Below, in pieces: positions 34,556-46,283 of a stretch of DNA of 64,000 nt (position 1 is its first letter; each line of letters starts with the position of its first letter). Source of the DNA: Apibacter adventoris (GTDB taxonomy: Bacteria; Bacteroidota; Bacteroidia; Flavobacteriales; Weeksellaceae). Both the position numbers and the translations under genes were made by a program. A model generated the notes under the pieces. That model searched no databases and was not told where the DNA came from. It was given only the letters and a program-made list of their open reading frames with translations. Where the stretch lies: positions 310,001 through 374,000 of the forward strand of contig NZ_PSZM01000001.1 in the NCBI RefSeq assembly GCF_002964975.1. The letters are read 5' to 3'.

Positions 34556-34677
34556 TCTGTAAAATTAGTACTTCTTTAGAAATCAAAAAAATAAATATAA
34601 TTTAAAATAAATTCTATTTTTTAATCATTAAATCATGATTTAATATACATTAACAAATAATGTTTTTCTATTTTTTA

Positions 34678-34685
34678 TAATTTTG
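34678..34685 (+). promoter_or_regulatory. -7 promoter element before the decayed lipoprotein gene
   Basis: TAATTTTG matches TAnnTTTG and directly abuts the ATG at 34686, suggesting the pseudogene kept a promoter or was read from a leaderless message. Confidence 0.3.
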
Positions 34686-35160
34686 ATGTTAAAAGAGTAT
34701 TTTCATTTAAAAATTAAAAATTTTATTATATTATTTCTATGCTTTCTATTATTTCCCAGTTGTTTTACAAGCTGGTCTTCTAAAAAAAGATCAAAGTTTT
34801 TAAGAAATTGTATAAATTCCAAAATATGTGAACACAAAAGCAGTATCCTTTTTATTATTCCAATTTTGATTTTATTTGGGTAAAAGAATATTCTAATGAC
34901 ACATTATTAGATTCATTTAAAATCTATGTATACCCTAATTTAAATCCATCAAAACTAAATAATAGCAGATATTCGAATTTAGATCGGCCCATTATACCTA
35001 ATCATAAATAATTTTTCCTGATTCCTAAACAAAAACCTTATGAACTTACTAATATGGAAATGAAAATGGTTCTTGTTTTACTATGTTTTCTGAAAATTGG
35101 GCATATATTCTTACACAGTTTTGTATTGATGTCTACCTTGAAAACAGAGAAAATTTATAA
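34686..35160 (+). pseudogene. Decayed lipoprotein gene
   Basis: The 837-nt gap between ruvB and nuoM is filled mainly by a broken gene on the plus strand. It starts MLKEYFHLKIKNFIILFLCF and continues LLFPSC, a lipoprotein signal with its cysteine. After about 50 codons the coding character moves to another frame (QYPFYYSNFDFIWVKEYSND, then LLDSFKIYVYPNLNPSKL and RPIIPNHK), hits TAA at 35009-35011, reads on in frame as FFLIPKQKPYELTN, then shifts again to GNENGSCFTMFSENWAYILT and ends VYLENRENL with a stop at 35158-35160. At least two frameshifts and one nonsense codon make it inactive. The family is not recognised. The remaining 232 nt up to nuoM shows nothing else. Confidence 0.7.
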
Positions 35161-35392
35161 TCGTGAAGAAAATACAATAAAATAAATTTCCTAGTTTTGT
35201 TAATTACACATATTGAAAACATTCATTCTCAGTGAAATAATTTAAATTTGATAACAGTATTAAAATAACCTCAAATACTTTAAATATTTAAATTATGAAT
35301 AAAAATTAATTTTAAATAAAAAATATTAATTTTATTAAATTTTAATTCCTAAATGCACTACGGGTTTTATTTTATTTATTATTTACATTCTA

Positions 35393-36859
35393 TTATCTAA
35401 ATAATAATCCTAAAACCTGTGTTGCTGTTTCTGATGAAAGATTTAATAAAGGTTGCGGAAAAATACCAAATATTAATACTAAGAAAGCCAATACTCCTAA
35501 TCCAATTTGTGTTTGTAATGAAATATCTTTTTGTGTTTTTAAAAATTCTTTATTTCCTGGTCCAAACATAGACATTCCGTAAGTCTTAGTTACATATACT
35601 GCACAGAGAATAAGAGTTAACCCTGCAAAAATTACTCCCCAGGTGCTTAAGGTATATATGCTTTTTAATAATAAAAACTCACCTATAAAAGCATTGGTTA
35701 GAGGAACGGCCATTGTACCTACGGATATAATCATGAATAAAACAGCAAGTACAGGTGCTTTTGCAGCCAAACCTCCCATTTTTGATAAATCTCTGGTACC
35801 AAATCTTTTTATTAATATATCTGCCACATAAAACAACCCTACTATATTTACTCCATGTGCCAACATTTGTATTGAAGCTCCTTCTATTCCGGTTTTGTCT
35901 ATACTATAATTTACAGATAGTATTGCTGAAGAAAAAATTCCGGCAGCTATTAATCCTACATGAGCCATAGATGAAAAAGCTATTAATCTTTTAATGTCTT
36001 TTTGTACTATTGCTATTAAAGACGCATAGACAATTCCTATAATAGATAAAACTAAGGCTATACACCCAGAGATACCTCCAATAGCTTCCGGGGCTAAAGG
36101 TAAAAGATATTTTATAATCCCAAATACTCCCATTTTTAACATGATCCCTGATAGTAACATAGAACCTTGTGTCGGAGCCATAGTATAGGTATCTGCCTGC
36201 CAGGAATGAAAAGGGAAAATGGGTAATTTAATAGCAAAAGCTAGGAAAAACATCCAAAATATAAATACTTGTTCTTCCGAGGATAGTTTTATTGAATATA
36301 AACTATGATAATCAAAAGATCCTGTTTGTAAATATACGTATATAAAAGCTACTAGCATAAATAAAGAGCCAAAAAATGTATAAATGAAAAATTTAAGATT
36401 TATCTTCCTTTTGTTTTCTCCGGTACCATATAAACCACATATAAACCAAATAGGAATTAATGTTACTTCCCAAAAAATATAAAATAATAATCCGTCCATA
36501 GAAGTAAATAATCCAACCAATCCAAACTGCATCAATAAAATTAAAGCATAAAATGCTGAAGGTCTATTATCTTTAAATGAAGAATATATAATAATAGGGG
36601 TTAAAGTATTAGTTAAAAGAAGCATTAATAGTGTAAGCCCATCTATTCCAAAATGAAGAGAGCTAGTAATTTGAGTTATCCAAGGGTATTGAACCTCAAA
36701 CTGAACTCCTTTTTCGTAAAATTGTGCCCACACAAAGGCTGTAAGTACAAATTCTGCTATAGCTAATGTAAAAGCTACGTATTTGGAACTATTTGCTTTT
36801 AGGGTAATTAATAATATTGCGCCTAATATTGGCAAAAGTATTATTGCTAATGTTAACAT
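35393..36859 (-). CDS. nuoM: NADH-quinone oxidoreductase subunit M
   Basis: A 488-residue antiporter-like proton-pumping subunit of complex I with about 14 transmembrane helices. It opens LTLAIILLPILGAILLITL. The conserved FYIFWEVTLIPIWFICGLYG carries the key glutamate, then AFAIKLPIFPFHSWQADTYTMAPTQGSMLLSGIMLKMG with the pump lysine and histidine, and IAFSSMAHVGLIAAG. It is the last nuo gene here: nuoN, which normally follows, is missing and a decayed gene lies beyond. Confidence 0.97.
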   Translation of the reverse strand: MLTLAIILLPILGAILLITLKANSSKYVAFTLAIAEFVLTAFVWAQFYEKGVQFEVQYPWITQITSSLHFGIDGLTLLMLLLTNTLTPIIIYSSFKDNRPSAFYALILLMQFGLVGLFTSMDGLLFYIFWEVTLIPIWFICGLYGTGENKRKINLKFFIYTFFGSLFMLVAFIYVYLQTGSFDYHSLYSIKLSSEEQVFIFWMFFLAFAIKLPIFPFHSWQADTYTMAPTQGSMLLSGIMLKMGVFGIIKYLLPLAPEAIGGISGCIALVLSIIGIVYASLIAIVQKDIKRLIAFSSMAHVGLIAAGIFSSAILSVNYSIDKTGIEGASIQMLAHGVNIVGLFYVADILIKRFGTRDLSKMGGLAAKAPVLAVLFMIISVGTMAVPLTNAFIGEFLLLKSIYTLSTWGVIFAGLTLILCAVYVTKTYGMSMFGPGNKEFLKTQKDISLQTQIGLGVLAFLVLIFGIFPQPLLNLSSETATQVLGLLFR

Positions 36860-36885
36860 TATATCCTTTTTACTTAATTTGTTTT

Positions 36886-38802
36886 TTAATGAGTTAAAAA
36901 TTTCGCTACTAATAATAATATAAATATTCCAACAGACATAGCAAATACATAAAATTCAACATTTCCGTTTTGTACTAATCTTAAAATATTTCCACATCCT
37001 TGTATTAATTTTCCAACTCCTTCTACTATACCATTTATAAAATACTTATCCACAATATTTTTTAAAAAACGACCTAAATTTAGAATCGGATTAACTATAA
37101 TTTCGTTATATAATTCATTGACATAAGCAGCTTTTGCAGAGACTTTTTGCCATCCGATAAGATTTTCTGTAATCTGAGCTGTAGTTTTTAATTTAACATA
37201 TTTATGGTAAGAAAAACCTGCGACTATAGCTATAATGGTTAAGGTAATAATTAATAGAATCATTTCTGTCATAAAAGATGGTTCAGGTATTGGATGTAAA
37301 CCTATATAAATAACTGATAACCAATTTGCCATTTTTTGTGATATACTTTCACCTAAATAATGAGGTAAATTTATAGCTCCTCCTATTGTAGTTAATATAG
37401 CTAAAATAATTAAAGGAATTGTCATGACTGCAGGACTTTCATGTATATGTTCTTTTTGCTCTTTAGTTCCTTTAAAATCTCCAAAAAAAGTAAGGAATAA
37501 TAACCTAAACATATAAATACAAGTTAATGCTGCAGAAAAAAGAGTTAAAAACCAAACTATTTTATTTTTTCCCCATAATACAGTAAGAATTTCATCTTTT
37601 GAAAACATTCCTGCTAATGGAGGTACACCACAGATAGCAAGAGTTCCTATTAAGAAAGTTCCATAGGTAAGTGGTATTTTCTTTTTAAGTCCTCCCATAT
37701 ATCTCATATCCTGCTCTCCACTCATTGCATGAATTACACTTCCTGCGCCTAAGAATAAAAGTGCTTTAAAAAAGGCATGAGTAGTTACATGAAACAGAGC
37801 AGTTGTATAGGCTCCTGCCCCTATTGCAATAAACATTAATCCTAATTGGGAAACTGTTGAGTAAGCCAATACTTTTTTAATATCATTTTGCCGTAAACCA
37901 ATAAAAGCAGCTAATAGTGAAGTAGCTAAACCTACGTACATAATAAAATCTAAGGTAAATGGGGATAAACTGTAAATTGCATTTGAACGTATTACCATAT
38001 AAATACCTGCCGTTACCATAGTTGCTGCATGTATTAATGCCGAAACGGGTGTTGGACCAGCCATTGCATCGGGTAGCCAGGTATATAAAGGAATTTGTGC
38101 GGATTTCCCCATAGCTCCTATAAATAAAAAAATAGTAGCTGATATTAATATAGGATCGTTAATTGAAAAGTTATTAATTTTACCAACTATGTCTGTATAT
38201 TCTATACTTCCAAAGTAATATGCAATTATAAATATTCCTATTAATAAGCCTAAATCCCCTATTCTATTCATCACAAATGCCTTGCGCGCAGCATAACCAT
38301 ATTCTTTATTTTTAAACCAAAAACCAATTAGAAGATAAGAACAAAATCCTACTCCTTCCCATCCTATAAAAAGAATTAAAAAATTACTTCCCATGACTAA
38401 TAACAACATGGAAAAAATGAAAAGATTAAGATATGAAAAGAATTTATAAAATCCTTTATCGCCATGCATATATCCTATGGAATATAAATGGATTAAAAAA
38501 CCTACCCCAGTAACAATCATCATCATAATGATGGATAATTGATCTATCTGAAAAGCAAAATTTACCTTAAATTCACCGATAGTAAACCAGTTAAATAAAT
38601 TTTGTTTTATTGGATCATAATTATCTAAAGAAGAACTTATACATAAATTACCAAAAATTATTATTGAAAGTAAAAAGGAAATGAAAACCATTAAAGTGGC
38701 TATACCTCCAACCATCTTTTCTGACATTTTTTTTCCAAAAATCCCACAAATTATAAATCCTATTAGAGGCAAAGCCGGTATTAGATATATTATATTCTCC
38801 AT
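36886..38802 (-). CDS. nuoL: NADH-quinone oxidoreductase subunit L
   Basis: A 638-residue subunit with about 16 transmembrane helices, the distal proton pump of complex I with its lateral helix at the C-terminus. Landmarks: FLILFIGWEGVGFCSYLLIGFW (conserved glutamate), FIGAMGKSAQIPLYTWLPDAMAGPTPVSALIHAATMVTAG (pump lysine and quinone-family signature), and AYSTVSQLGLMFIAIG. It lies 3 nt after nuoK and 26 nt before nuoM. Confidence 0.97.
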   Translation of the reverse strand: MENIIYLIPALPLIGFIICGIFGKKMSEKMVGGIATLMVFISFLLSIIIFGNLCISSSLDNYDPIKQNLFNWFTIGEFKVNFAFQIDQLSIIMMMIVTGVGFLIHLYSIGYMHGDKGFYKFFSYLNLFIFSMLLLVMGSNFLILFIGWEGVGFCSYLLIGFWFKNKEYGYAARKAFVMNRIGDLGLLIGIFIIAYYFGSIEYTDIVGKINNFSINDPILISATIFLFIGAMGKSAQIPLYTWLPDAMAGPTPVSALIHAATMVTAGIYMVIRSNAIYSLSPFTLDFIMYVGLATSLLAAFIGLRQNDIKKVLAYSTVSQLGLMFIAIGAGAYTTALFHVTTHAFFKALLFLGAGSVIHAMSGEQDMRYMGGLKKKIPLTYGTFLIGTLAICGVPPLAGMFSKDEILTVLWGKNKIVWFLTLFSAALTCIYMFRLLFLTFFGDFKGTKEQKEHIHESPAVMTIPLIILAILTTIGGAINLPHYLGESISQKMANWLSVIYIGLHPIPEPSFMTEMILLIITLTIIAIVAGFSYHKYVKLKTTAQITENLIGWQKVSAKAAYVNELYNEIIVNPILNLGRFLKNIVDKYFINGIVEGVGKLIQGCGNILRLVQNGNVEFYVFAMSVGIFILLLVAKFLTH

Positions 38803-38805
38803 GTA

Positions 38806-39129
38806 TTATCCCTTTAATCTATTAAATAAACTTACATCTGTAGAACCTGTATTTCTATAAAGCATGGTAATAATTGCCAATCCTACTGCTACTTCTGCAG
38901 CTGCTACTACCATTATAAAAAAAACTAATATTTGTCCATTTGCATCTCCTTTATAGGCAGAAAATGCAGTTAATAACAGGTTAACTGAATTAAGCATAAG
39001 TTCTATGCATCCTAAAATTATTATGGCATTTCTCCTCACTAAAACTCCTGTTATTCCTATACAGAAAAGTAAGGCAGACAGGTATATAAAATAATCTATT
39101 GGAATGCTTTGTAATAAACTATTTACCAT
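38806..39129 (-). CDS. nuoK: NADH-quinone oxidoreductase subunit K
   Basis: A 107-residue complex I subunit with three transmembrane helices. [43 protein letters not shown] contains the conserved membrane glutamate of the E-channel, and [19 protein letters not shown] is the third helix. Length is normal for the family. It is placed between nuoJ and nuoL as usual. Confidence 0.97.
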
Positions 39130-39157
39130 TTCTCTTCTTTTTTATTTCAGATATATA

Positions 39158-39652
39158 TTATAAATCTCTTTTTCCTATCATAACAGCGCCTACTAATGCA
39201 GATAAAAATAAAATACCTGCTAATTCAAAAGGCAATACATACTGACTAAATAACAAATGTCCTAAATTCTTGGTTAAACCTATTTGACTATCAGGATTTA
39301 AAGGAAAATCAATTTGATTATATCCACGTAATGCTCCTAAAAATCCTATAAATACTAACCCTCCACATATAGTCGCCAGAATTCTGAATGCATTACCTTT
39401 AAGAGGTTCATCTTTTTCTTTTAAATTTAACATCATTAAAACATACAGAAACAAAACCATAATTGCTCCTGAATATACTATAATTTGAACTGCACTTAAA
39501 AATTGTGCATTTAACATGATATATAAACCTGAAATTGAAAAAAAGGTAATAATAAGAGCTATAATACTATACATTGGATTTTTACTAAATATTACAAATA
39601 AAGCACTTATTACTGAACAGGCAGATACTAAATAAAACAAAATTTCCTCCAT
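39158..39652 (-). CDS. nuoJ: NADH-quinone oxidoreductase subunit J
   Basis: A 164-residue complex I membrane subunit with five helices. It has the family segments SKNPMYSIIALIITFFSISGLYIMLNAQFLSAVQIIVYSGAIMVLFLYVLMMLN, including the pi-bulge helix tyrosine and glycine. It lies 3 nt before nuoI's stop in the operon order H-I-J-K-L-M. Confidence 0.97.
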   Translation of the reverse strand: MEEILFYLVSACSVISALFVIFSKNPMYSIIALIITFFSISGLYIMLNAQFLSAVQIIVYSGAIMVLFLYVLMMLNLKEKDEPLKGNAFRILATICGGLVFIGFLGALRGYNQIDFPLNPDSQIGLTKNLGHLLFSQYVLPFELAGILFLSALVGAVMIGKRDL

Positions 39653-39655
39653 GTC

Positions 39656-40198
39656 TTATTTTTCTATTGAATATTTTTTTATTTGTCTTAGAGAGACATC
39701 AATTCTATTTTCCAATGTTTCTACTAATTTATCTTTGCCATAAATAAAATTTTTTCTTAGATCTTCTGGAAAGACAATTCTATCAGTCAAAAATATTGCT
39801 TCTTTTGGGCAGGCGTCTTCACAAAGCCCACAAAATATACACCTTAGCATATTAATTTCGTATTTTTTAGCATATTTTTCTTCTCTGTAAAGATTTTCTT
39901 CTCCTTTTTTTCTTTCTGCTGCTATCATTGTAATAGCTTCTGCCGGACAAGCAACTGCACATAGACCACATGCTGTACATCTTTCTCTCCCTTCATCATC
40001 TCTTTTTAAAATATGCTGTCCTCTATATACAGGGCTAAATTCTCTTTTCTGTTCAGGATAACTAATGGTAGCTCTTTTTTTGAATAAATGACTAAAAGTT
40101 ATGGACATTCCGGAAAGTATAGTGGGAATATATATTTTCTCTTTGAAAGTCATAGTTTTATTGGAAACTACTTTAGATCTATTTGTCAATCGTTGCAT
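39656..40198 (-). CDS. nuoI: NADH-quinone oxidoreductase subunit I (2x[4Fe-4S])
   Basis: A 180-residue ferredoxin-like complex I subunit carrying clusters N6a and N6b. Two CxxCxxCxxxCP motifs are present: CTACGLCAVACPAEAI (about residue 75) and CIFCGLCEDACPKEAI (about residue 122), with FSPVYRGQHILKRDDEGRERC before the first. An internal methionine at residue 16 is an alternative start. It lies 31 nt after nuoH. Confidence 0.96.
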   Translation of the reverse strand: MQRLTNRSKVVSNKTMTFKEKIYIPTILSGMSITFSHLFKKRATISYPEQKREFSPVYRGQHILKRDDEGRERCTACGLCAVACPAEAITMIAAERKKGEENLYREEKYAKKYEINMLRCIFCGLCEDACPKEAIFLTDRIVFPEDLRKNFIYGKDKLVETLENRIDVSLRQIKKYSIEK

Positions 40199-40229
40199 AA
40201 GCTTTATATAATTTTAGCTTTATTTGTTA

Positions 40230-41279
40230 TTATTTAAAAACTATAATGGCTGCTGTGATTAAAAGGTTAAATATGGCTAATGGAATCATAATTCTCCAAC
40301 CTAATCGCATTAATTGGTCGTAACGGAATCTTGGCAAGGTCCATCTTACCCACATAAAGCAAAATATACAAAAAGTTATTTTTAAAAGAAATGTAATTAT
40401 GCTAAGTATTCCAATCATATTTTCACTTAATGTTCCGTTTGCTGCTAATTCATTCATATACGGAAAACTATAACCTCCTAAAAAAAGAGTACTTATTAAT
40501 GCTGAACTGATAAACATGTTTATGTATTCTGCAAATAAAAATACTCCAAATTTCATAGAACTGTATTCTGTATGATAACCTCCTACTAATTCTGATTCAC
40601 ATTCTGCCATATCAAAAGGAGCACGGTTTAGCTCTGCAAAAGAACAGGTCACAAATAATATAAAGGCTAAGGGCTGATAAAACACATTCCAAGCCAATCC
40701 ATTTAAAAAAGATATTCCATATAAGTTTGTAGCTTGTTCTTCAACCATTACTCTAAGATCTAATGTCCCAGACATCATAATAATAGAGAGAAGAGAAAGT
40801 CCCATAGCTAATTCATAGGAAATCATTTGCGAAGAAGCTCTTACAGCTCCTAGCAGAGAATATTTGTTATTAGATGCCCATCCTCCCAACATAATACCAT
40901 AAACTCCTATAGACACTATTCCCATGATATATAAAACTCCAACATCTATATTAGCTACTTGTACGGGATATGAAATTCCACTAAATACTAAGGTTTTTCC
41001 CCATGGAATAACAGCTCCTGTGCTTAATGCTATAAGCATCAATATTCCAGGGGCTATTATAAAGAGCCATTTATTCGCGTTTCTTGGAACGAAATCTTCT
41101 TTAAAAAATAGTTTTCCCCCATCACATAGGGGTTGCATTAAACCAAAAATACCTGCTCTGTTAGGTCCGTATCTATCTTGCATTAATGCGGCTACTTTTC
41201 TTTCCATCCACGTTTCATAAGCTGCTGCTCCTAAACATATTACAAATAAAATCACTACTAATGATATTGTAAACCACAT
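40230..41279 (-). CDS. nuoH: NADH-quinone oxidoreductase subunit H
   Basis: A 349-residue membrane subunit with about 8 helices that forms the quinone-binding chamber with NuoB/NuoD. Signatures are ETWMERKVAALMQDRYGPNRAG near residue 25, LFFKEDFVPRNANKWLF, LLGAVRASSQMISYELAMGLS, FAELNRAPFDMAECESELVGGYHTEYSSMKFG with its acidic residues, and RWTLPRFRYDQLMRLGW. It starts 6 nt after nuoG. Confidence 0.98.
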   Translation of the reverse strand: MWFTISLVVILFVICLGAAAYETWMERKVAALMQDRYGPNRAGIFGLMQPLCDGGKLFFKEDFVPRNANKWLFIIAPGILMLIALSTGAVIPWGKTLVFSGISYPVQVANIDVGVLYIMGIVSIGVYGIMLGGWASNNKYSLLGAVRASSQMISYELAMGLSLLSIIMMSGTLDLRVMVEEQATNLYGISFLNGLAWNVFYQPLAFILFVTCSFAELNRAPFDMAECESELVGGYHTEYSSMKFGVFLFAEYINMFISSALISTLFLGGYSFPYMNELAANGTLSENMIGILSIITFLLKITFCIFCFMWVRWTLPRFRYDQLMRLGWRIMIPLAIFNLLITAAIIVFK

Positions 41280-41285
41280 ATTTTA

Positions 41286-42284
41286 TTATCCTATTTTTGT
41301 TTTTATTTGTTCTTTTTTGTCGATTAAATAATGAGGATCATCTTTAGGTAAAGGTAATTCATAATGATTTAAAGAAATTACTGAGTGATCACTAATATGT
41401 GTAGGTCCTTCAATTGTCCAGAAATTAATATCTTTTCTATCAAATCGACATTCATTACAAATAAATTCCTCTACTTCATTATATTGGTCTTTTCTCGCTG
41501 TAACTCTGATTATTTCATTTCCTTTCATCCATAATACCGCTTTACCACTACATTTTTCGCATTTACAAGTTGCATTCACCGGTTTAGTAAACCAAACTCT
41601 ACTTTTAAACCTTGCGGTTCTGTCAGTTAAAGCTCCAACTGGACAAACATCTATTACATTTCCGGAAAAATCGTTGGTAATTGCTTTATTTAGATAAGTA
41701 CTAATTTCAGCATGATCTCCTCTAAACAGAATACCGTGATCTCTATGATCAGTAAGCTGATTTGCTACTAAAACACAACGTGCACAGAGTATACAACGGT
41801 TCATATTCAGCTTAATGTTAGGGCCTATATCATCTGCAATAAAAGTTCTCCTAGGAAATTCAGAACGTGTTCTTTCTAATCCATGTTCATAGGCAAGATC
41901 TTGCAATTTACATTCTCCTGCTTGATCGCATATAGGACAGTCTAAAGGATGATTTATAAGTAAAAATTCTGTTACTCCTTCTACTGCTTTTTTTACTCGT
42001 TCTGAGGTAATTACTTTTACCTCCATTCCATCCATTACATTGGTACGACAACTAGGCACCAATTTTGGCATAGGTCTTGGATCTTTTTCTGATCCCTTGG
42101 ATACCTCTACTAAACAGGTACGACAACGTCCTCCACTCCCTTTTAATTTGCTATAGTAACACATTGTAGGGGGTACAGATTCACCGCCTATTTGCCTTGC
42201 GGCTTCAATTATAGGAATTCCTGGTTCTACTTCAACCATAATTCCATCTATGGTTACTTTAACTTTATTGTTTTCCTCAATCAT
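41286..42284 (-). CDS. nuoG: NADH-quinone oxidoreductase subunit G, short form
   Basis: A 332-residue NuoG limited to the FeS domains. It has the [2Fe-2S] motif (CYYSKLKGSGGRCRTC), the His-ligated [4Fe-4S] site (HPLDCPICDQAGEC), further CILCARC and CKCEKC motifs and a terminal CNEC. The large molybdopterin-like C-terminal domain of the E. coli protein is absent, as is usual in Bacteroidota. Electrons from NuoF/E pass through it to NuoI. It is separated from nuoF by the outer-membrane protein gene at 42317-43135, an unusual arrangement. Confidence 0.95.
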   Translation of the reverse strand: MIEENNKVKVTIDGIMVEVEPGIPIIEAARQIGGESVPPTMCYYSKLKGSGGRCRTCLVEVSKGSEKDPRPMPKLVPSCRTNVMDGMEVKVITSERVKKAVEGVTEFLLINHPLDCPICDQAGECKLQDLAYEHGLERTRSEFPRRTFIADDIGPNIKLNMNRCILCARCVLVANQLTDHRDHGILFRGDHAEISTYLNKAITNDFSGNVIDVCPVGALTDRTARFKSRVWFTKPVNATCKCEKCSGKAVLWMKGNEIIRVTARKDQYNEVEEFICNECRFDRKDINFWTIEGPTHISDHSVISLNHYELPLPKDDPHYLIDKKEQIKTKIG

Positions 42285-42316
42285 TATTCCCTTACTTAAA
42301 TAATATTATAAATGGC

Positions 42317-43135
42317 TTAAAAATGCCAGCTACATCCAAAAGTATAGTTCCATTGTAGATAAACTATATTTTGTGAGGCTTTATCCGCTTTATTGGAAGA
42401 TGTTCTAATATCAGGCATACTTATTATTCCTTCTTTTAATTCTGTTCTTAAAAAGAATATTTTCCAGAATAATAATTCTGCTCCAATTTTTGCATCTAAG
42501 CCCCAACCGGCAAAATGGAATTTATCATGTCTTTCTTTATCCATAATAGTTGCATTAGTTTTAGGGATTAAGAGGCCTAATCCTCCTCCTGCAATTCCAT
42601 TAAATTTAAAAAAGCCTGCTTGTAGGAAATTATGAAAATATTCTAATTCTGCATTTAAATAATTGAGCCCGTCTGTATGTTCCAAATGTAAAAAATCATC
42701 TGTTAAATACCCGTATTCTCCATCTTTTATCGCATCTTCATATCCAGGGTGATCAATTTCTCCTGTTGCTTTTACCCATTGTCCTGGTCTTACTACGTAT
42801 TTCATGTGATCCATTCCTAAAGAAATCGCCCAATTATCTTTAAAAAAATATCCTATTCTATAGTTAACCTGAGGTATAGTAACTCTTCCGGGATTTAAAA
42901 AATCATGGAAATTCCATCCTATCGGTTTATCATCTCCTTTTACTCCATGAAGAGTAAAGTTATAATCATCACCTGTAAAATGTACAGATGATCTTCCATA
43001 AAAGGCTCTGTTCCACCCCCAATAGGCATAGACTTCTCCTTTTCTGTGAGCAATTTTTTTATTATTCTGTGCTACTATTGTGCTAAATGGTAGCAAAAAT
43101 AAAGCAGTTAAAATTAACTTTTTATACATATTCAT
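42317..43135 (-). CDS. Outer-membrane beta-barrel protein embedded in the nuo operon
   Basis: A protein of about 272 residues with an N-terminal signal peptide (MYKKLILTALFLLPFSTIVAQ) followed by aromatic- and glycine-rich strands (GEVYAYWGWNRAFYGRSS, YRIGYFFKDNWAISLGMDHMKYV, AELEYFHNFLQ) and a C-terminal strand ending WNYTFGCSWHF, all typical of an outer-membrane barrel. It has no similarity to complex I subunits. The start is ATG at 43135 or 43129; either overlaps the end of nuoF (stop at 43122), and the gene runs to 32 nt before nuoG, so it must be co-transcribed. Its function is unknown. Confidence 0.78.
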   Translation of the reverse strand: MNMYKKLILTALFLLPFSTIVAQNNKKIAHRKGEVYAYWGWNRAFYGRSSVHFTGDDYNFTLHGVKGDDKPIGWNFHDFLNPGRVTIPQVNYRIGYFFKDNWAISLGMDHMKYVVRPGQWVKATGEIDHPGYEDAIKDGEYGYLTDDFLHLEHTDGLNYLNAELEYFHNFLQAGFFKFNGIAGGGLGLLIPKTNATIMDKERHDKFHFAGWGLDAKIGAELLFWKIFFLRTELKEGIISMPDIRTSSNKADKASQNIVYLQWNYTFGCSWHF

Positions 43136-44453
43136 AGTTTGATATTCCATAATTTTTAATTAGACATTCTGGATTATTAATATGCCATTCAAATTCATCT
43201 CTGAAATGGCGAATTGCCGCTGCTACAGGCCAAGAGGCCGCATCTCCTAACGGACATATAGTATTTCCTTCTATCTTAGTTTGAATATCCCATAATAAAT
43301 CAATATCTTCTGTAGTTCCTCTTCCCTCTTCTATTTTTTTTAGAATCCTATACATCCATCCTGTTCCTTCTCTACATGGTGTACATTGTCCACAACTTTC
43401 GTGGTTAAAAAATCTTGCTAACGTCATTGTATGCCTTACTACGCATTGGTCTTCATCTAAAACAATAAAACCTCCGGATCCCATCGCCGTTCCAGAAATG
43501 AATCCTCCATCCGCCAAACTTTCGTAATTCATATAACGAGTATCTCCGTTTGCTGTTTTTAATAATAATTTTGCGGGCAAAATAGGGACAGAAGCCCCTC
43601 CAGGAATACATGCTTTTAATTTTTTACCATTTGGAATTCCTCCACAATATTCTTCACTATATATAAATTCTTCTACACTTAGGTTAAAATCGATTTCGTA
43701 AACTCCTGGTTTATTAATATTTCCACAAGCTGAAATAAGCTTGGTCCCTAATGATTTCCCGGTTCCTAATTTTGCATATTCAGCACCTGTTAGATTTATT
43801 ATTGCTCCTATATTGGAAATCGTTTCTACATTATTTACTACAGTAGGGCACTGATATAGACCTTTTACTGCCGGAAATGGTGGTTTTAACCTCGGATTTC
43901 CTCTTCGCCCTTCTAAAGATTCGAGTAAAGCCGTTTCTTCCCCACAAACATAAGCTCCGGCTCCTCTTTGTATATATATTTCTAAATCATAACCAGAATT
44001 TTTTATATTCTTACCTAAATATCCATTTGCTTTTGCTTCCTGAATAGCATGTTCTAGAATGTCGGGAATCCAAGAATATTCTCCTCTTATATATATATAG
44101 GATGTATTGGCTCCTAAACAATAGGATGATATAATAATTCCCTCTATTAAAATATGGGGAATATATTCCATTAAATATCGGTCTTTAAATGTACCAGGTT
44201 CTGATTCATCTGCATTTACTACTAAATAACGTGGCACTCCTTCGGGTTTAGCCAAAAAACTCCACTTCATTCCTGTAGGAAATCCTGCGCCCCCTCTTCC
44301 TTTCAAACCACTCGCTTTAACTTCTTCTAATATTTCATCTGATGACATTTTCAAAGCTTTATCTACCGCACTATATCCTCCGTATTTTTTAAAAACTTCA
44401 AAGGTCTTGATTCCTTCAACTCCAATATTTTTTAATAATAACTTTTGACTCAT
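43122..44453 (-). CDS. nuoF: NADH-quinone oxidoreductase subunit F (NADH/FMN site)
   Basis: A 443-residue complex I subunit that binds NADH, FMN and cluster N3. Visible motifs: GRGGAGFPTGMKWSFL (NADH/FMN loop, about residue 53), NADESEPGTFKDRYLM, RGAGAYVCGEETALLESLEGRRGNPR, and the cluster motif ESCGQCTPCREG (about residue 350). The ATG at 44453 is preferred to the TTG at 44459. It is 26 nt after nuoE. Confidence 0.97.
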   Translation of the reverse strand: MSQKLLLKNIGVEGIKTFEVFKKYGGYSAVDKALKMSSDEILEEVKASGLKGRGGAGFPTGMKWSFLAKPEGVPRYLVVNADESEPGTFKDRYLMEYIPHILIEGIIISSYCLGANTSYIYIRGEYSWIPDILEHAIQEAKANGYLGKNIKNSGYDLEIYIQRGAGAYVCGEETALLESLEGRRGNPRLKPPFPAVKGLYQCPTVVNNVETISNIGAIINLTGAEYAKLGTGKSLGTKLISACGNINKPGVYEIDFNLSVEEFIYSEEYCGGIPNGKKLKACIPGGASVPILPAKLLLKTANGDTRYMNYESLADGGFISGTAMGSGGFIVLDEDQCVVRHTMTLARFFNHESCGQCTPCREGTGWMYRILKKIEEGRGTTEDIDLLWDIQTKIEGNTICPLGDAASWPVAAAIRHFRDEFEWHINNPECLIKNYGISNYEYV

Positions 44454-44479
44454 TATCAATTGAGTTTCCTATATTTATT

Positions 44480-45010
44480 TTATTGAACTGTTATTTTAGC
44501 TTCTTTACATAGTTCTATTATTTCATCTACTTTTTCTTTAGTAAGATGTTCATGATAAAACTTACCTATTTGCATCATAGGTGCATAACCACAGGCACCT
44601 AAACACTCTGCCGGTTTTAATGTGAATAAACCATCTTGAGTAGTTTCTCCTTCGTTAATTTGTAATTTTTCTTTAATATAATCAATAATCTGATCACTTC
44701 CTTTTAACATACACGGACCCGTTCTACATACTTCCAAAACGTATTTACCTACAGGCTGCATATTAAACATAGTATAAAAGGTAGCCACTTCATATACTTC
44801 TATGGATGAGATGTGTAACAATGTAGCAATGTAATCCATTACAGGAACATCTAACCAACCTCCAAATTCTTTTTGAGCAAGATGTAATATGGGAATCAAA
44901 GCTGATTTTTGTTTTCCCTCCGGGTATTGAGCAATGATTTTATTGACTTTCTCTAAAGCTTCTGTGCTAAATAAAACGTTACTATTTGAATTTACGCCAT
45001 TTGCGTCCAT
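44480..45010 (-). CDS. nuoE: NADH-quinone oxidoreductase subunit E ([2Fe-2S])
   Basis: A 176-residue thioredoxin-fold subunit carrying cluster N1a. The four cysteine ligands are in CRTGPC (about residue 103) and CLGAC (about residue 143); the helical N-terminal part reads YPEGKQKSALIPILHLAQKEFGGWL. The ATG at 45010 (MDANGVNSN) is chosen over an in-frame TTG at 45034, because that codon lies inside a full promoter (45032-45063). It is the first nuo gene here; nuoA-nuoD are not upstream, where a plus-strand acyltransferase sits instead. Confidence 0.95.
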   Translation of the reverse strand: MDANGVNSNSNVLFSTEALEKVNKIIAQYPEGKQKSALIPILHLAQKEFGGWLDVPVMDYIATLLHISSIEVYEVATFYTMFNMQPVGKYVLEVCRTGPCMLKGSDQIIDYIKEKLQINEGETTQDGLFTLKPAECLGACGYAPMMQIGKFYHEHLTKEKVDEIIELCKEAKITVQ

Positions 45011-45031
45011 TTCGATTTCTATGTTTGATTG

Positions 45032-45063
45032 CAAATATACAATATTGGACTTTAGTTAACAAA
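45032..45063 (-). promoter_or_regulatory. Promoter of the nuoE-nuoM cluster
   Basis: On the minus strand TTTG (45063-45060), a 20-nt spacer and TATATTTG (45039-45032, followed by C) match both boxes of the Bacteroidota promoter. Transcription would start near 45025, about 15 nt before the nuoE ATG. Confidence 0.75.
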
Positions 45064-45169
45064 GTTAAAATCAGAGATTTTGTCACGTTTCATCTATCTG
45101 GAATAATTATAAATAATGGTTTTATTGCTATTTGGCTACTCAAAAGGTTTTGCCTATTTTAATTTTATT

Positions 45170-45184
45170 TGACTTTAAAAGTCA
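45170..45184. repeat. Short palindrome before the acyltransferase gene
   Basis: TGACTTT-A-AAAGTCA is a perfect 15-nt dyad in the spacer between nuoE and the plus-strand acyltransferase. It could be an operator site; its function is unknown. Nothing else is seen in this spacer besides the nuo promoter. Confidence 0.3.
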
Positions 45185-45287
45185 GCTAAATTCTTTGATT
45201 TCGATAATTAAATTTATTTTTTATCTTTAACATTATTTAATAAGTATATTAAAAGTTACTTAATTATTATATTATAAAAAGCTCATT

Positions 45288-46283
45288 ATGAAAAGAAACC
45301 TCTTTATTGATGTTGTAAAAGGAATTGCTACTTTAAGTGTAATTTTTATTCATACAGTTTTTTGGTCCGGGGAGAGATATGTTCCTTCAGAAATAAGAAG
45401 TTTAAGTTTATTAATAGATGTTCCCATCTTTTTCTTTTTAAGTGGATTTACTTCTTCAGGCAATATTGAACGAAATATACACCGCCTTTTGAAATTACAG
45501 ATTACTTATATGGTGTTTATCACTTTAATATATTTTTATTGTAATTTTTACAACAAAGACTTGAACTGGATTATATTACTTAATTGGTATTTGCATGATT
45601 ACTCTTTCTCTGGCCCCTTAGAAGTAGTTATGGGATCTATGTGGTATTTAAAAATTTATTTTATCACATCGTTTTTTGGTACAATTGTGCTAAAATATTG
45701 TTCTCAAAAACAAATATCTATACTTATTGGAATATTTATTATTTGCCTTTTTTATTTTAGTTTTCATTTTTATCCCCAAGGAAATACAGGTTATATTTTA
45801 ACATATCTATCATTTTTTTTAATCGCTCATCAATTAAAAAACATCAATCTAAAGCCGTTATATGCAATTTTATGTTTTTTATTATTACTTTTTATTTATT
45901 ATTTGCTTTATCTTCACTTTGGCAATAAAGCGACTTTACTAATAAGATATCAAAAATTTCCCCCTAATATAATTTACTTTGTCTATTCTTCATTTTCTTT
46001 ATTAATCATAGTTTTTTTAAAAGGAAGAATTAAATTCTCAAAAAATAATTTCCTTTCTTATATAGGACAAAATGCCATATTTTATTATTTTGCACAAGGA
46101 ATTATTTGCTCTAAAATATATGCTTTGGTAAAATTATGGGAAAATTTTATAGACTGGCCTATTTTATTATTACTTATTTTCTCTATAAATGTAATATTGG
46201 CAACTATTATGGCTTATATTTTAAAGAAGATTGATTATTTGGGTTGGAAATTTCTTTATTTTATTAAAAATAAAACTATGTAA
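45288..46283 (+). CDS. Acyltransferase family 3 membrane protein
   Basis: A 331-residue protein with about 10 hydrophobic helices and the acyltransferase-3 N-terminus FIDVVKGIATLSVIFIHTVFW, in which the histidine is the expected catalytic residue. FLSGFTSSGNIERN (about residue 55) is the loop after helix 2. Members O-acylate surface sugars or lipids; the substrate is unknown. It stands alone between the nuo cluster and tRNA-Leu, in very AT-rich DNA, with long gene-free flanks. Confidence 0.82.
   Translation: MKRNLFIDVVKGIATLSVIFIHTVFWSGERYVPSEIRSLSLLIDVPIFFFLSGFTSSGNIERNIHRLLKLQITYMVFITLIYFYCNFYNKDLNWIILLNWYLHDYSFSGPLEVVMGSMWYLKIYFITSFFGTIVLKYCSQKQISILIGIFIICLFYFSFHFYPQGNTGYILTYLSFFLIAHQLKNINLKPLYAILCFLLLLFIYYLLYLHFGNKATLLIRYQKFPPNIIYFVYSSFSLLIIVFLKGRIKFSKNNFLSYIGQNAIFYYFAQGIICSKIYALVKLWENFIDWPILLLLIFSINVILATIMAYILKKIDYLGWKFLYFIKNKTM

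Follow-up and report, generated by a model that had tools for sequence, protein, structure and literature searches.

A gene for a predicted outer-membrane beta-barrel seated between nuoF and nuoG in Apibacter adventoris and in many other Weeksellaceae

The complex I (NADH dehydrogenase) genes of Apibacter adventoris raise the question of why a gene for a predicted outer-membrane beta-barrel protein lies between nuoF and nuoG. An earlier note on this DNA offered two answers, namely that the gene is a recent insertion tolerated in the operon, or that it codes for a protein whose expression is tied to respiration. We analysed the window (the whole 64,000-nucleotide stretch of contig NZ_PSZM01000001.1, assembly GCF_002964975.1) together with structure predictions, family models and related genomes. 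The reading that we consider probable is that the gene belongs to a conserved, unnamed Bacteroidota barrel family, and that it is an old lodger of the nuo operon which acts independently of complex I. Apibacter species are described as bee gut symbionts with microaerobic respiration that encode NADH dehydrogenase (PMC5913662). The relevant features of the window are the following:

44480..45034, (-) strand: nuoE, the first gene of the nuo cluster (ORF listed from a TTG; the true start is possibly further in)
43122..44459, (-) strand: nuoF (above the cut-off of TIGR01959), sharing 14 nt at its 3' end with the barrel gene
42317..43135, (-) strand: predicted outer-membrane beta-barrel protein gene, 272 aa (ORF list, translation, AlphaFold2, VIA-align)
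41286..42284, (-) strand: nuoG, short, 332 aa (partial TIGR01973 match, below cut-off)
35393..41279, (-) strand: downstream genes nuoH-nuoM of the same cluster, with nuoH and nuoI assigned by family-model matches, nuoJ and nuoK read from their translations, and nuoL and nuoM assigned by PF00361 matches
45032..45062, (-) strand: Bacteroidota-type promoter-like pattern (TTG, 17-23 nt, TAnnTTTG) at the nuoE start, from a pattern scan

The ORF coordinates agree with the arrangement claimed for the barrel gene, an overlap with the end of nuoF and a short distance to nuoG: it starts inside the last 14 nt of nuoF (whose ORF ends at 43122), and 32 nt separate its stop from the nuoG ATG (42284). Its frame is also open up to an ATG at 43150, which would give a protein of 277 aa. 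For each of NuoE, NuoF, NuoH and NuoI, one or more NCBIfam models score above their curated cut-offs. The short NuoG passes the Pfam domain cut-offs, scores 277.8 bits against the whole-protein NuoG model (cut-off 470.05) and aligns with the N-terminal part of TIGR01973 (1-260 of 606). By arrangement, the barrel gene is a member of the nuo operon, with all genes on one strand, overlapping or close frames and no internal terminator in a consensus scan; no terminator-like site was found in 41000-45400, where 2.5 were expected from shuffles. Bacteroidota promoters carry the motif TTG, 17-23 nt, TAnnTTTG. On the minus strand, 41001-45400 contains it in full just once, at the nuoE start, and this is a weak match in that its frequency across the window (16 in 128 kb of strand) predicts about 0.5 there by chance. 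A scan for E. coli-type promoters (18 found, 21.1 expected) was uninformative. The overlap with the nuoF frame, the lack of a terminator-like site in the scanned region and the promoter pattern at nuoE make co-transcription likely. The barrel gene probably shares the nuo message, and in Apibacter its translation is probably coupled to that of nuoF, so that co-expression with complex I subunits, which the earlier note had taken as given, stands as probable only.

Complex I genes are found at three places in Apibacter: nuoA-D, the nuoE-M cluster of the window (35393-45034) and, on another contig (C45), a third subunit of antiporter type that was taken to be nuoN. The split falls after nuoD, with nuoA-D about 60 kb from the window cluster (L118, G000:C1:286000-300000); nuoD lies at G000:C1:291854-292663 (PF00346), and nuoA-C were assigned by reading. 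In 5 of 9 Apibacter genomes, those with both genes on one contig, nuoD and nuoF lie about 55-61 kb apart. No nuoN follows nuoM within the window; where it might be expected, there are about 800 bp (34605-35393) without a long ORF.

That the product is indeed a barrel, as the earlier note had proposed, is supported by structure prediction. An AlphaFold2 model was computed from a 79-row alignment made of the window protein and 78 of the 80 loci described below (excluding L051 and L055, whose matched stretches contain stop codons or frame breaks), and it has a mean pLDDT of 91.0 and a pTM of 0.80. It begins with N-terminal helices corresponding to a signal peptide (~1-22, read by eye; N-terminus MNMYKKLILTALFLLPFSTIVAQ) and continues with long beta strands, among which eight transmembrane strands were read by eye, within residues 34-271, from the DSSP string and the structural matches:

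Residues ~34-46, 91-99, 102-115, 149-173, 176-197, 210-223, 227-244 and 252-271: strands 1 to 8

The final residue is Phe, as is usual for outer-membrane barrels. In VIA-align 2, OmpA, OmpW, NspA and OprG were largely tied (Z 14.1-15.8; rmsd 2.5-3.8 A over 137-195 residues), followed by PagL (Z 11.9) and PagP (Z 9.1). Among viral structures, the top matches were outer-membrane, OmpW-/OmpA-like or unnamed proteins, with nothing specific, and the lower ones included maturation proteins of levi-like phages. A sequence-profile search of the PDB gave a single match, an antibody chain (E 0.045), which was taken as chance. On the strength of the model and its superposition on solved small barrels, we rejected the possibility that the protein is not a barrel; it is predicted to be a small outer-membrane beta-barrel of the OmpA/OmpW fold class, and would be exported by Sec, folded by BAM and located at the outer membrane.

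The likeness to the OmpA N-domain, NspA and OmpW/OprG is one of fold, barrel size, signal peptide and C-terminal aromatic residue, but identity in the structural alignments is just 8-15%. Unlike these proteins, the window protein has a long conserved first loop, and no family model matched it reliably. To our knowledge, its EHTDGLNY/DHMKY signature does not occur in the OmpA, NspA or OmpW/OprG families. Searches of Pfam and NCBIfam with the window protein gave no match at E <= 1, and the PHROG search returned only a family of unknown function (E 0.15). When the 79 members were scanned singly, 11 Pfam families were reached by any of them at E <= 0.1, including scattered weak matches to OprF (3 of 79, best E 0.011), OMP_b-brl (1 of 79, E 0.006) and OMP_b-brl_2 (2 of 79, E 0.064). 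Unrelated Pfam and NCBIfam families score similar or better E-values than these outer-membrane models, and these weak matches mean little because the best NCBIfam E-values (0.0013 and 0.0025) both point to unrelated families. Pfam, NCBIfam and PHROGs thus offer no model that fits the family, and the titles and abstract openings of the literature searched held no description of it.

Conservation within the alignment is concentrated on the side predicted to face outward from the cell. The near-invariant EHTDGLNY and DHMKY motifs lie in the predicted extracellular half. Every one of the eight strands is more conserved in this half than in the periplasmic one, most strongly strand 3 (0.97 vs 0.63) and strand 4 (0.89 vs 0.46), and conservation is high in loops 1 and 3 too (0.67 and 0.72). 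The facing of residues was taken from strand alternation rather than from model coordinates. Hydrophobic alternation puts even positions toward the lipid in strands 2, 3, 5 and 8; in strands 6 and 7 it is the odd positions that face it. In the membrane core of strand 4 the alternation is weak (even -0.48, odd -0.93), the facing there being taken from residues 160-164. By this reckoning, the invariant H110 and K112 (strand 3) and E152 and N158 (strand 4), with the near-invariant T154 (strand 4), would point outward near the edge of the outer leaflet, and R93, D109, H153, D155, R230, E232 and K234 would point into the lumen. A lumen that is closed and charged, together with a conserved patch on the outside, suggests binding or catalysis at the surface or outer leaflet rather than a pore.

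A comparison can be made with the lipid A deacylase PagL, also an 8-stranded barrel, whose active site is a His-Ser-Glu triad on the barrel exterior. The outward invariant residues that we propose may resemble that exterior site: H110 and E152 face outward by alternation, and the sole invariant Ser (S49) falls outside the eight strands as read. The PagL Pfam model is not among the 11 families reached by any of the 79 members at E <= 0.1. As the likeliest role we suggest, tentatively and with more doubt than conviction, that the barrel binds or modifies an outer-leaflet lipid, LPS or a surface ligand, and that co-expression with complex I only sets its level. A bolder version, which we regard as rather a long shot, would make it an undescribed Bacteroidota outer-membrane enzyme or LPS-binding barrel, with an active site on the outward-facing side of strands 3-4 (H110, K112, E152 and N158), wired to aerobic respiration in Weeksellaceae through the complex I operon.

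The structural matches would also fit a passive channel of the OmpW/OprG kind for small hydrophobic solutes. OprG is the best Foldseek match (E 4.4e-8) with OmpW in the top ten, and OprG and E. coli OmpW reach Z 14.8-15.0 in VIA-align. However, OmpA and NspA tie with them in Z, the OmpW Pfam model is not among the 11 families reached by any of the 79 members (E <= 0.1), and the charged network that alternation places in the lumen is more like a closed plug. We therefore consider such a channel unlikely.

To place the gene in its lineage, we surveyed 148 genomes of the family, each at least 95% complete and sampled evenly from a larger group, their Weeksellaceae label being deduced from named loci. 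The barrel gene is present in 114 of the 148, and NuoG (E <= 1e-80) and NuoF (E <= 1e-150) are each found in 141. The same gene sits between nuoF and nuoG in 97 of the 148 genomes (97/141 of those with nuoFG), which span 14 of 27 genera; among these, one has a second copy elsewhere and one (G023) has an apparently broken copy. It is found elsewhere in 17 genomes (genera g21 and g28), one of them, G035, with a copy broken by stops. No barrel match accompanies nuoFG in 27 genomes (27/141), and 7 genomes have neither. The matches to nuoF and nuoG lie 43-537 bp apart where the barrel is not between them and 838-3793 bp apart where it is, the longest interval (G011) leaving room for a further gene. 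What the gene shares with complex I is its place inside the nuo operon, overlapping nuoF. A subunit of complex I would be present wherever the complex is in the lineage; the barrel differs in its predicted outer-membrane fold and in being dispensable, the 27 nuoFG genomes lacking it. This agrees with the earlier note, which remarked that no known complex I component is an outer-membrane protein.

The same barrel family is widespread elsewhere in Bacteroidota, where none of the loci and genomes that were examined has it next to nuo. A named genome collection gave at least 588 confirmed stretches (a single gene may account for as many as two of these, as the scan employed two search patterns), from which 80 loci were kept. 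The gene lies between nuoF and nuoG in 8 of them (Apibacter, Chryseobacterium, Elizabethkingia and Riemerella), and the other 72, one of which is a Weeksellaceae bacterium, have no nuoE-I match in the DNA examined, which was short in some cases. A sample of the phylum has the barrel gene in 28 of 247 genomes. In the genomes outside the family that hold both barrel and NuoF, the two are apart in 18 of 18 (on different contigs in 15 and more than 0.7 Mb apart in 3), although draft contig ends may conceal a few neighbours among them. The neighbours outside the family (names read from sequences) include glmM, kdsA, an LpxL-like acyltransferase, a rhomboid-like gene and a class V aminotransferase; no single functional partner recurs among them, and they follow lineages. 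Those of LPS type (glmM, kdsA and the LpxL-like acyltransferase) lend no more than loose support to the LPS idea.

A direct service to respiration, for example as a port for small solutes, iron or a redox shuttle whose dose follows complex I, would explain the position by selection. The position is kept in 97 of the 141 nuoFG genomes of the family, although the Apibacter nuo genes are split. In the phylum sample, a NuoF match at E <= 1e-130 is found in 22 of 28 genomes with the barrel and 85 of 219 without it (compared by eye), and the barrel is enriched with a close NuoF (E <= 1e-200), occurring in 22 of 36 such genomes vs 6 of 211 others. A study of Elizabethkingia anophelis links respiratory-chain genes, NADH-quinone oxidoreductase included, with iron and describes them as upregulated in iron-replete medium (PMC7221216). 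The enrichment could reflect a real link to respiration, though it is confounded by ancestry: of the 22 genomes, 13 come from a single genus (g31, regarded as Flavobacterium-like) and 4 from the family of the window, so that the association is not proof of a functional tie. Against a respiratory role, 6 of the 28 barrel genomes have no NuoF match at E <= 1e-130, the barrel is missing from 27 and placed elsewhere in 17 of the 141 nuoFG genomes of the family, and outside the family it is unlinked from nuo. We find this explanation improbable. The suggestion of the earlier note that expression is tied to respiration is plausible within Weeksellaceae, whereas the 72 of 80 loci and the 18 of 18 genomes do not extend it further; the lack of linkage outside the family points to a lineage-specific capture with probable co-expression.

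The absence of the barrel from some nuoFG genomes, its placement elsewhere in others and its lack of linkage outside the family argue for our preferred reading of a lodger independent of complex I. Under this reading, an ancestor within Weeksellaceae would have acquired the gene at the nuoF-nuoG junction; most descendants would have kept it at the site, and it would have been lost or have decayed several times. It would be read from the nuo message, with translational coupling to nuoF in Apibacter, and its product, after Sec export and BAM folding, would act at the outer membrane independently of complex I, through a conserved site on the extracellular half that may work on an outer-leaflet lipid, LPS or a surface ligand. 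Its significance is that a large and tightly conserved outer-membrane family (at least 588 stretches) has neither a fitting model nor a description in the literature searched. The stable seat in the complex I operon of one family gives a handle on the timing of barrel production, and the case shows an unrelated envelope gene persisting in a respiratory operon over many genera.

Several results bear on the age of the placement. Five orthologs of the same genus are 77-83% identical. In the sister genome G001, nuoF and nuoG are 366 bp apart, and this gap can still be matched to the Apibacter barrel gene, its core scoring 46.0 bits against a coding-sequence-only model vs a best of 7.5 in 500 dinucleotide-preserving shuffles; G004 and G005, of the same genus, have short nuoF-nuoG gaps of 61 and 52 bp. 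The barrel gene has a GC of 0.324 and a GC3 of 0.209, within the ranges of the seven other nuo genes for which they were computed (0.295-0.351 and 0.171-0.231). Its dN/dS among six Apibacter orthologs is 0.039-0.112 (10 of 15 pairs with finite dS), compared with 0.019-0.057 for nuoF and 0.009-0.067 for nuoG (15 of 15 pairs each), these values being rough because many dS values are near saturation. The gene is under purifying selection, mostly somewhat weaker than that on nuoF and nuoG. The same-genus orthologs, the low dN/dS and the homologs in 114 of 148 family genomes indicate that the ORF is more than chance. Phage records gave no match to the gene and E. coli genomes no DNA match, and plasmid records gave one, a 'hypothetical protein' at 38.7% identity from a Bernardetia plasmid whose 15 listed features include no nuo gene.

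A recent insertion merely tolerated in the operon would fit a barrel that is not a complex I component and is missing from 27 nuoFG relatives, but it is contradicted by the same site in 14 genera, the decayed remnant in G001, the flank-like composition, the low dN/dS, and the phage and plasmid records, and we reject it, mobile or otherwise, as highly improbable. The placement is old and common to many Weeksellaceae.

The number of arrivals at the site was examined by phylogeny (rows L004/L021 and L010/L092 of the tree are the same gene twice). In the free tree, the Apibacter copies group with those of Dysgonomonas and Bacteroides ihuae (support 98/86), and the other 16 in-operon rows form their own clade (100/100). 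Such a split would suggest two separate arrivals at the same site, which we set aside, as AU tests reject neither a single clade of the 23 in-operon rows (p 0.573) nor a clade of these with 7 Bacteroidales rows (p 0.693). Because the AU tests are not against it and the constrained trees score above the free tree, one arrival is the simpler reading, and the simplest account, though a tentative one, is a single capture at the site with a possible later transfer from an Apibacter-like donor to Bacteroidales.

Some individual copies deserve mention. Those of Dysgonomonas, Bacteroides ihuae and a Bacteroidales MAG (L022-L027 and L029) are 48-52% identical to the window protein and among the closest outside Apibacter. 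The in-operon copies of other genera in alignment A1, at 38-45%, fall below them, a possible sign of gene transfer. Two adjacent barrel copies occur in two places outside Weeksellaceae (L052:5136-6798 and G373:C48:119-1954). In a MAG named Rhizobium (L031), the copy and its neighbours match Flavobacterium-type loci, and the bin is probably mis-assigned. Finally, a copy in the gammaproteobacterial chromosome of Glaciecola amylolytica (L099) falls among Bacteroidota rows of the tree, pointing to a possible transfer or a mislabelled record.
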